Shown piece by piece: positions 19,687 to 21,810 of a DNA stretch of 64,000 bases. The first letter of the stretch is position 1, and each line of letters starts with the position of its first letter. The position numbers and the translations under genes were made by a program. The stretch is taken from assembly GCA_903870685.1 (NCBI GenBank), contig CAIQDX010000004.1, forward strand, positions 1 to 64,000. The letters run 5' to 3'. The notes beneath the pieces were generated by a model. It was given only the letters and a program-made list of their open reading frames with translations. It searched no databases and was not told the DNA's origin. Source of the stretch: an uncultured Chitinophagaceae bacterium (GTDB taxonomy: Bacteria > Bacteroidota > Bacteroidia > Chitinophagales > Chitinophagaceae).

Positions 19687-19890
19687 TCAGATTTTATTTA
19701 ACCCATCTTCAGAAGTAAAAGGCTTTAGTATTTCATCGGGTTTTTGTTCAGGTACATTTTCGAAATCATAAGGACAATGTCTGCAGCCAAGTCCGCAACA
19801 ATAGCCTTTTTCGATATGGTATTGTTCAGTAAATACTAATAAGTTATTGGTATAATAAAAATCAACTCCTTCAATTAATGGATTGTTCAC
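19687..19890 (-). CDS. DUF5522 small cysteine-rich protein
   Basis: 67 residues. The motif YCCGLGCRHCPYDF is typical of DUF5522 and suggests a bound metal or Fe-S cluster. Its start lies within the last 20 bases of trmB (19871-19890), so the two are probably translationally coupled. The function is unknown; the frequent company of tRNA modification genes is only a hint. Confidence 0.82.
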   Translation of the reverse strand: MNNPLIEGVDFYYTNNLLVFTEQYHIEKGYCCGLGCRHCPYDFENVPEQKPDEILKPFTSEDGLNKI

Positions 19891-20575
19891 TGATCAATTG
19901 TTTTAAGATTTCATCATTTTCGATCGGCAGATTTTTATTCAGTCTGAATTGCAAATAATGAATGCGGTTACTTTTTGCAATATCTAAACTCTCGTAATAA
20001 GTTTTGATAGAGAGTTCCTTTGAAATTTCAGAGGCCGAATAAACATCATCTGAATCATGTAACAATTCTAATTGAAATAAGTTTATAACAGTTTTTGTAA
20101 ATTGATATAGATCGGGACTATCGGTCTTTAAATTAATAAAGCCATTTGGAACCAATATCTGTTGGTACAATCGTAAAAACTTGGGGTGTGTTAAACGTTT
20201 TTTTGCTTTTGATAAACGCAATTGGGGATCGGGGAATGTGATCCATATTTCGCTTACTTCATCTTTTCCAAAATGATCGGTTATCTGATCTATGATGGTA
20301 CGAACAAAAGCAACATTGTTCAAACCTTCATCCAGGGCGGTTTTTGCGCCACGCCAAATACGATTACCCTTTATATCAATACCAATAAAATTTCTCTCGG
20401 GAAATAATTTCCCTAAGCCAACAGCATATTCTCCTTTGCCGCAAGCTAGCTCGAGTGTGATAGGATGATCATTTTTAAAATACTCTTTCCATTTCTCTTT
20501 CATCCATTGCGGATGTTCTAAAACATTGGAGAAATTTTTTATGGCTTCGAAGCGAATTAATTTTTTATGTCCCAT
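19871..20575 (-). CDS. trmB: tRNA (guanine-N7)-methyltransferase
   Basis: 234 residues. It makes m7G46 in the variable loop of tRNAs, using SAM. The SAM site is ELACGKGEYAVGLGKLFPERNFIGIDIKG (residues ~40-68). The acidic FPDP motif, in the form WITFPDPQLRLSKAKKRL, marks the TrmB family. It is the first gene of the minus-strand group. The region upstream contains the decayed repeat copy at 20611-20671. Confidence 0.94.
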   Translation of the reverse strand: MGHKKLIRFEAIKNFSNVLEHPQWMKEKWKEYFKNDHPITLELACGKGEYAVGLGKLFPERNFIGIDIKGNRIWRGAKTALDEGLNNVAFVRTIIDQITDHFGKDEVSEIWITFPDPQLRLSKAKKRLTHPKFLRLYQQILVPNGFINLKTDSPDLYQFTKTVINLFQLELLHDSDDVYSASEISKELSIKTYYESLDIAKSNRIHYLQFRLNKNLPIENDEILKQLISEQSIN

Positions 20576-20721: not shown

Positions 20722-20928
20722 ATGAAAAAAACACTCGCATTTTTACTGACATTAATTTCATTGAGCACATTTGCCCAAAGCACAACTAAGACTCAAACAA
20801 AAATTGGGTCAACTAAATCTTCAGACACTGCTAAGATGACTGTTCATTCTAGAGTATGGATTGCTGATGATACAAGTTCAACTAAAATGAAAGGAAAGCT
20901 ATTAGCGCCTGCAAAGAAAAAAGACTAA
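20722..20928 (+). CDS. Small secreted protein of unknown function
   Basis: 68 residues. A clear Sec signal peptide (KKTLAFLLTLISLSTFAQ, cleavage after AQ) is followed by ~48 Thr/Ser/Lys-rich residues, with one short conserved-looking patch HSRVWIADD and a basic tail. No domain is recognised. It lies alone between two copies of a repeat. The signal peptide supports a real gene despite the size. Confidence 0.6.
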   Translation: MKKTLAFLLTLISLSTFAQSTTKTQTKIGSTKSSDTAKMTVHSRVWIADDTSSTKMKGKLLAPAKKKD

Positions 20929-20967: not shown

Positions 20968-21003
20968 AAAAAAACAGCCAACGCTGTAGAAACAGCACTG
21001 GCT
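20968..21003 (-). terminator. Intrinsic terminator of the tRNA-like RNA
   Basis: On the minus strand AGCCAGTGCTGT pairs with ACAGCGTTGGCT over 12 positions (two G-T pairs), loop TTCT, followed by GTTTTTTT. It starts 23 bases past the predicted 3' end of the RNA. Confidence 0.82.
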
Positions 21004-21031
21004 TTAAAACACCGAAATAAGAAAGCTGTAG
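20972..21031. repeat. Intact partner of the repeat at 20611-20671
   Basis: This is the copy that contains a working terminator and the last bases of the tRNA-like RNA. See 20611-20671 for the alignment. Confidence 0.6.
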
Positions 21032-21188
21032 GGGTAGGAGTCGAACCTACACGAGGAAGTTAGCTGTAGTACAAAGTCGCGGTGGTCAACCCCGGTCTTT
21101 CTTGCGAAAGGCTCTATGCTACGTTTATCCTGGATTCCTCACCCCCGAGACGAGAGGGCATGTCTGCCAAAAGTTTCATCACCCCACA
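21027..21188 (-). ncRNA. tRNA-like structured RNA with an oversized (~90 nt) variable domain
   Basis: The minus strand folds like a tRNA. The acceptor is TGTGGGG (21188-21182) with CCCTACA (21033-21027). The D arm is ATG/CAT with GG in the loop. A five-pair stem CCCTC/GGGGG carries the seven-base loop TCGTCTC. A T arm GTAGG-TTCGACT-CCTAC (21050-21034) directly precedes the acceptor strand. Between the third stem and the T arm lies an extra domain closed by TGAGGAA/TTCCTCG (21141-21135 and 21058-21052), with a CTTTC-GCAA-GAAAG hairpin inside. Position 33 is C instead of U, so ordinary decoding is doubtful. It has its own promoter and terminator. It is too short for tmRNA and not recognised as any known family. 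It fills most of the 408-bp gap. Confidence 0.7.
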
Positions 21189-21220: not shown

Positions 21221-21228
21221 CAAAATTA
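21221..21228 (-). promoter_or_regulatory. Promoter -7 element for the tRNA-like RNA
   Basis: On the minus strand TAATTTTG matches TAnnTTTG. Transcription would start near 21215, leaving a ~27-nt 5' leader before the folded RNA begins at 21188. RNase P-type cleavage could remove that leader. No convincing -33 element is seen. Confidence 0.45.
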
Positions 21229-21336: not shown

Positions 21337-21810
21337 ATGGCTTCAAAATTAAATCTTGACAAACTTGATTTTCAAATCATCCAGGAGATGATGGAAAATG
21401 CAGAGATCTCTTATGCCGATTTAGGCAAGAAATTATTTGTTTCCGGCGGAACAATTCATGTTCGCATCAAAAAATTAGAAGAACAAAAAGTGGTCAAATG
21501 TAGGAAATTAGCAGTTGATTTAAAAGCTTTGGGTTATGATGTGATTGCTTTTATTGGAATTTATTTAGAAAAAAGTTCTTTATACGATTCAGTTGCAAAA
21601 GAATTAAAAAAGATTCCTGAAATTGTACGGTTGAATTACACTACCGGTAATTACAGCATGTTTGCTGAAATTGTTTGTAAAGACATTCAGCAATTGCGTC
21701 ATGTTTTACATGATAAATTACAAAACATAAAAGGTATTGAACGAACAGAAACTTTTATTTCTTTAGATGAAAGCTACAGCCGCAATGTTGTTGTAACCGA
21801 TGGGATGTAA
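21337..21810 (+). CDS. Lrp/AsnC-family transcriptional regulator
   Basis: 157 residues. An N-terminal winged helix (LDKLDFQIIQEMMENAEISYADLGKKLFVSGGTIHVRIKKLEEQKVV) is followed by the RAM ligand-binding domain (~residues 65-145; GYDVIAFIGIYLEKS, TGNYSMFAEIVC). These regulators sense amino acids or other small molecules. The targets are not shown here apart from the likely autoregulatory inverted repeat. It is followed after 30 bp by a wzz-like gene. Confidence 0.93.
   Translation: MASKLNLDKLDFQIIQEMMENAEISYADLGKKLFVSGGTIHVRIKKLEEQKVVKCRKLAVDLKALGYDVIAFIGIYLEKSSLYDSVAKELKKIPEIVRLNYTTGNYSMFAEIVCKDIQQLRHVLHDKLQNIKGIERTETFISLDESYSRNVVVTDGM

Follow-up and report, generated by a model that had tools for sequence, protein, structure and literature searches.

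The tRNA-like RNA encoded on the minus strand at positions 21188-21026 of the window (the whole stretch of 64,000 nucleotides analysed here) is real, far beyond chance. It belongs to a previously unlisted RNA family, absent from Rfam 15 and from the open-access papers searched. Judging from sequence, with a probability of roughly 0.7, this RNA acts as a tRNA-like carrier that is dedicated to asparagine synthesis and does not decode; it would be charged by AspRS and then amidated by GatCAB.

Structure of the RNA Gene

The gene and its neighbouring elements are arranged as follows:

21337..21810, plus strand: AsnC-like regulator of the Lrp/AsnC family, divergent from the RNA gene
21221..21228, minus strand: putative -7 element TAATTTTG of the Bacteroidota TAnnTTTG type, by consensus match only
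21026..21188, minus strand: tRNA-like RNA, 163 nt including the discriminator G73, from direct reading, covariance model and homologues
21182..21188, minus strand: 5' strand of the acceptor stem, UGUGGGG (U1, G2), paired with CCCUACA at 21027-21033
21160..21179, minus strand: D arm of 3 bp, with G18G19, the single base C20, A21 and no base 20a
21141..21159, minus strand: anticodon-like arm with a five-pair stem, one stem pair covarying as UG/UA/CG/GC
21153-21147, minus strand: anticodon-like loop UCGUCUC, with the triplet GUC at 21151-21149 and C38 at 21147
21053..21140, minus strand: inserted domain of 88 nt in the variable region, closing stem GAGG/CCUC, covariation in helices 4 and 5
21122-21112 with 21076-21066, minus strand: long stem of the insert, which also holds a conserved GAUAAA/CUAA internal loop
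21097..21110, minus strand: GNRA-type (GCAA) hairpin of the insert, helix 6, 4-5 covarying pairs
21078..21095, minus strand: hairpin GGUUGACCA with a UNGA-type loop and a bulged A
21034..21050, minus strand: T arm with the loop UUCGACU, helix 8, UA/GC/AU changes
about 20969..21003, minus strand: intrinsic terminator of 12 bp, AGCCAGUGCUGU / ACAGCGUUGGCU, then a U run, by direct reading

The acceptor, D, anticodon and T arms stand in cloverleaf order, with U8, G18G19 and a TTC loop, and the covariance-model match at 21026-21188 scores 191.9 bits. The seven-pair acceptor, the D arm with GG, the five-pair stem with its seven-base loop and the textbook T arm described in an earlier note on this DNA are all present. 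Its extra domain of ~90 nt is the 88-nt insert (21140-21053), with the GAGG/CCUC closure and the GCAA-capped hairpin. That note placed the ends at 21188 and 21027; the 5' end stands, while the RNA runs one base further at the 3' end, to G73 at 21026, with C74 encoded at 21025. The promoter and 12-bp terminator it ascribed to the gene are both visible, the former as a consensus match only, and homologues carry terminator-like hairpins downstream of the RNA too. Within the insert, the GCAA hairpin is variable in size and the hairpin GGUUGACCA is the best-conserved section; both are missing in short forms.

Two other genes lie nearby. The tRNA m7G46 methyltransferase gene trmB (19871-20575, minus strand) adjoins the RNA in 22 surveyed loci, probably through shared synteny. 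A 68-aa secreted-type reading frame (20722-20928, plus strand), with no NCBIfam match, converges on the terminator of the RNA.

Conservation, Covariation and Distribution

The RNA is judged real because of comparative evidence, namely conservation and covariation, and not because of free energy. Its single-sequence folding energy is not unusual (MFE z-score -0.21), so stability alone is no evidence for it. Identity is 97-99% across five of five genomes of the genus, and the RNA is present in 207 of 296 genomes of the family Chitinophagaceae, representing 78 of 103 genera. In an alignment of 27 sequences, 96.6% of cells are paired and 17 pairs show changes on both sides, a result that none of 500 shuffles reaches. 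With 95 sequences from named genomes, 32 of 45 pairs are changed on both sides (0/500 shuffles), in an alignment that was fitted to the model; the covariation of the 27 sequences is therefore the cleaner test.

With the covariance model, full-length copies also turn up in additional families and in other orders of the class, plus one family (f68) whose listed relation is no closer than the phylum. Among the named carriers are Chitinophaga, Niabella, Ferruginibacter, Saprospiraceae, Cyclobacterium, Algoriphagus, Spirosoma, Dyadobacter and Fulvivirga. Weak matches of ~84 nt (E about 1e-8 to 1e-12) were set aside as apparently ordinary class II tRNAs, and the two cellular ones inspected are tRNA-Leu; genome tallies at E 0.01 overcount the RNA, since they take in such matches.

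The length of the RNA ranges from 108 to 210 nt (243 copies). The variable domain retains its closing stem and the GAUAAA/CUAA internal loop, with the inner hairpins present or absent by copy. Many genomes carry tandem copies, up to five, some of them alternating long and short forms. The locus L068:4961-5858 is a five-copy array in which forms of ~177 nt and ~119 nt alternate. Downstream of a full copy at L062:4550-5230, and also in L060, stand two repeats of ~318 nt that are limited to the insert domain and a portion of the T arm, without D and anticodon arms; these are apparently degenerate partial copies. A mini-ORF (AUG GGU UGA) conserved in some copies was dropped as a candidate because the copy in the window is without it.

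No Rfam family matches the RNA: the gathering threshold of RF00005 is not reached, and a permissive threshold gives chance matches only. ARAGORN calls neither a tRNA nor a tmRNA, and searches of open-access papers found nothing on this RNA family. A match to a known RNA family, or a lack of conservation, had been named in the earlier note as grounds against a novel RNA; Rfam gives no such match, and conservation is strong. Its view that the RNA is unlike class II tRNA and tmRNA is borne out as well. Class II tRNAs have variable arms of about 10-20 nt, against 88 nt here; the D arm is class II-like and similar to that of tRNA-Leu. Like tmRNA, the RNA joins a tRNA-like half to an extra RNA domain, and phage copies lie in tRNA arrays close to a tmRNA. 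Unlike tmRNA, it spans only 108-210 nt and has an anticodon-like arm, and no conserved tag reading frame was seen in this genus.

Aspartate Identity and Amidation Marks

The bacterial aspartate identity set comprises G73, G34, U35, C36 and C38 as major elements and G2-C71 as a minor one (PMC9976931). The RNA carries the entire set. G2-C71 is found in 243 of 243 distinct copies, G73 in 242 of 242 complete copies, and G34, U35, C36 and C38 each in 96 of 96, where positions 32, 33 and 37 vary. The loop tabulation is restricted to these 96 copies, which were recovered with no filter on the anticodon loop, because the other loci had been fetched with a pattern that fixes this loop. Two aids to AspRS on tRNA-Asp are missing: position 10 is A instead of G in the window and variable elsewhere, and G1-C72 is replaced by U1-A72. 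That the RNA may be aminoacylated, as suggested in the earlier note, is thus well supported by sequence, with the main AspRS identity elements invariant.

The same loop departs from the needs of decoding. At position 33 the 96 copies have U (66), C (26) or G (4), so that the C33 reported earlier holds for the copy in the window and not as a feature of the family. Position 37 is U in 91, C in 3, G in 2 and A in none. The combination of U33 with a purine at 37 is therefore not kept by the family, and the triplet is GUC in 96 of 96 copies, not the GUU of tRNA-Asn. The invariant set reads as an aspartate identity without decoding constraints; judged by its decoding loop, the RNA is tRNA-like, yet not a tRNA. 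The GUC triplet, the T arm and the encoded C74 would also suit an elongator tRNA of unusual form, one that reads aspartate codons and bears a giant variable arm. This reading is extremely improbable, as the genome has a normal tRNA-Asp(GUC), position 37 is never A, U33 is not kept, and U1-A72 would turn such a tRNA into an amidation substrate.

For amidation by GatCAB, U1-A72 is the determinant, and G1-C72 and U20a are antideterminants (PMC9976931, PMC4206432). The host's own tRNA-Asp(GUC) carries both blocks. The RNA shares with tRNA-Asp the pair G2-C71, G73, the GUC triplet with C38 and the T loop, but differs in having the marks of a GatCAB substrate: U1-A72 in 238 of 243 copies, and a single base between G19 and A21, hence no 20a, in all 243. 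It differs further by the U, C or G at position 37 and by the long insert.

Co-occurrence with GatCAB and Asparagine Synthetases

An RNA that carries aspartate for GatCAB is predicted to occur where GatCAB does. Before the search, 47 RNA-bearing genomes and 33 lacking the RNA were chosen, and GatCAB was scored by GatB alone. GatB is present in 47 of 47 genomes with the RNA and in 7 of 33 without. All 7 of these lack GlnRS, which makes GatCAB necessary for their Gln-tRNA. Where GlnRS is present, GatB accompanies the RNA in 35 of 35 genomes and is found in 0 of 23 that are without the RNA. Across the 296 family genomes, 199 have both, 84 neither, 8 the RNA only and 5 GatB only (Fisher p 1e-57, a value that ignores relatedness, the counts not being phylogenetically independent). 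The association holds within Chitinophagaceae and likewise in another family, f23. Most of the 13 discordant genomes are incomplete; the complete exceptions are G082 and G092, the latter with a weak RNA match (1.2e-4).

AsnRS scores over the cut-off in 78 of 80 genomes, and free asparagine is therefore needed in essentially all of them. The E. coli-type AsnB (NF006949) is found in 0 of 47 genomes with the RNA and 11 of 33 without, and AsnA in 4 of 47 and 2 of 33, respectively. NF006949 replaced the broad AsnB model TIGR01536, which is uninformative because paralogues of 600-690 aa also match it; asparagine-synthase-family proteins of this size are common among genomes with the RNA and, like AsnA in 4 of 47, count against the carrier reading. 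The genome of the window, 100% complete, has AsnRS, GlnRS and GatB; AsnA was not found in it, and no AsnB-family match is better than 5e-13. This signature of AsnRS, GlnRS and GatCAB without AsnA or AsnB is that of some Bacteroidetes in a 2014 survey, for which a tRNA-Asn route to asparagine was proposed (PMC4206432).

Other patterns were seen among the genomes. G035, a complete family genome, has AsnRS and GlnRS, with no RNA, GatB, AsnA or AsnB-family protein over the cut-off; asparagine auxotrophy or an alternative route is possible there. Short AsnRS-like frames without the N-terminal region, at G615:C2:595933-596853 (346 aa) and G830:C1:2542190-2542744 (195 aa), are possibly asparagine-synthetase-like paralogues.

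Ordinary tRNA-Asn could also be the site of synthesis, with the RNA as a scaffold or regulator of the AspRS/GatCAB complex, binding these enzymes or sensing Asp/Asn charging. The host's tRNA-Asn is a separate gene with U1-A72, so GatCAB could act on it if AspRS were non-discriminating, and this combination is the established route in Bdellovibrio (PMC4206432). A scaffold would, moreover, equally co-occur with GatB and adjoin an AsnC-family gene. We nevertheless regard this explanation as unlikely, for a scaffold could do without an encoded acceptor end in which G73, G2-C71 and U1-A72 are invariant, combined with an aspartate anticodon and C38, and the host tRNA-Asn carries U20a, the reported antideterminant in tRNA-Asp. 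The dedicated carrier, owing to its aspartate anticodon, could be charged even by a discriminating AspRS.

The AsnC-like Regulator

The best solved relative of the regulator beside the RNA is E. coli AsnC (PDB 2cg4, 5.2e-31). Among NCBIfam models AsnC is the best, at 156 bits, with Lrp at 57 bits; as the equivalog cut-off of the former is 227, the protein is termed AsnC-like and not AsnC. The same protein family adjoins the RNA in 108 of 165 cellular loci, a descriptive count given that these loci overlap in lineage, and 57 of the 165 have no AsnC-like gene within the 4.5 kb surveyed. The AsnC-like genes are divergent from the RNA in 109 of 109 cases and 122-253 bp apart from it in nearly all. 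When the intergenic regions were searched for an AsnC operator, most of the words recovered were AT-rich.

AsnC of E. coli switches on asnA, the gene of an asparagine synthetase, an effect that is lost when asparagine is present (PMC4482635). The two arrangements are alike in that an AsnC-family regulator controls or adjoins an asparagine-supplying element. They differ in what stands next to the regulator: here it is an RNA gene, divergent in every case, and not the AsnA enzyme. By analogy, the AsnC-like regulator may tune the expression of the RNA to the asparagine level.

Dedicated metabolic tRNAs have a precedent in the staphylococcal tRNA-Gly for the cell wall, and the present RNA, charged with asparagine or aspartate, might similarly feed a FemX/GNAT-like ligase that moves the residue to a lipid, a cell-wall peptide or a peptide product. 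The same sequence signs of charging and amidation would be expected. Such non-ribosomal transfer is distinctly unlikely: the survey of recurrent neighbours turned up no transferase gene, the conserved neighbour is the AsnC-like regulator, and the negative association with AsnB indicates asparagine supply.

Copies on Phages

In IMG/VR, 110 stretches contain the core motif of the RNA, and all 80 viral loci examined carry the RNA complete or nearly so. Their recurrent neighbours include terminase and portal genes. These loci differ from one another, some having tRNA arrays and tmRNA and some no other tRNA. A blastn search of the INPHARED phage collection did not match the RNA.

Three viral copies (L273:13126-13285, L287:6939-7098 and L288:165-312) have A1-U72 in place of U1-A72, and are natural variants bearing on the GatCAB determinant; those in L273 and L287 also lack the GGUUGACC hairpin. 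Palindromes of 10 nt occur in 8 of 19 viral copies, against 1.2 expected, and are not enriched in cellular copies (5 of 90, 5.6 expected). They were therefore rejected as a general dimerisation element; in viral copies, they may allow pairing between two RNAs. Six viral loci (L219, L245, L275, L278, L282 and L220) have perfect palindromes of 10-12 nt that differ in sequence (GCATGCATGC, GCCGGCCGGC, GCTAGCTAGC, ACTGTGCACAGT) and sit after the UNGA hairpin.

It is not obvious why a purely metabolic RNA should be carried by phages. The copies in the 80 viral loci, many of them within tRNA arrays that include a tmRNA, and a loop like that of tRNA-Asp would fit an EF-Tu-bound regulatory RNA, a decoy tRNA or a shield against anticodon nucleases. 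The first two were the suggestions of the earlier note, and nothing was found in their favour. Asparagine metabolism is indicated instead by how the RNA is conserved, by its AsnC-like neighbour and by its near-perfect co-occurrence with GatB. A decoy or shield predicts neither that co-occurrence nor the exclusion of AsnB in bacteria, and a nuclease decoy should copy the entire loop, yet positions 33 and 37 drift. We consider this group of explanations very unlikely.

A Proposed Carrier RNA for Asparagine Synthesis

For the dedicated carrier, we propose the following route. AspRS would charge the RNA with aspartate through G73, G2-C71, G34-U35-C36 and C38. GatCAB would then read U1-A72 and the missing 20a, and convert Asp-RNA to Asn-RNA. 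The asparagine would be freed or handed on to the free asparagine pool of the cell, which AsnRS requires; no releasing factor was identified in this analysis. The insert, the non-purine at position 37 and the loose position 33 would keep Asn-RNA off the ribosome; there, with asparagine attached to a GUC anticodon, it would misread aspartate codons.

This chemistry is already known on tRNA-Asn, in the AspRS/GatCAB transamidosome of Deinococcus, Thermus and Bdellovibrio, where aspartate is likewise charged and then amidated via U1-A72. What is new is the RNA itself, dedicated to this task and equipped with an aspartate anticodon. In contrast to tRNA-Asn, it has GUC and C38, a loop that is not kept for decoding and a large insert; it is a separate gene beside an AsnC-like regulator, and phages carry the RNA as well. 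More tentatively, and with the odds against it, the family might represent RNA cofactors for amino-acid biosynthesis, in which the insert both excludes the ribosome and promotes asparagine release, possibly by itself, and through which phage copies, some of them with self-complementary elements, control host asparagine.

If the carrier reading is true, some bacteria use a dedicated RNA as the platform for making an amino acid. It would explain the asparagine source of the many Bacteroidota that have AsnRS, GlnRS and GatCAB with no recognised asparagine synthetase, a gap on record since 2014 (PMC4206432). A dedicated, non-translating RNA would thereby join primary metabolism, and phages would gain a reason for carrying it.
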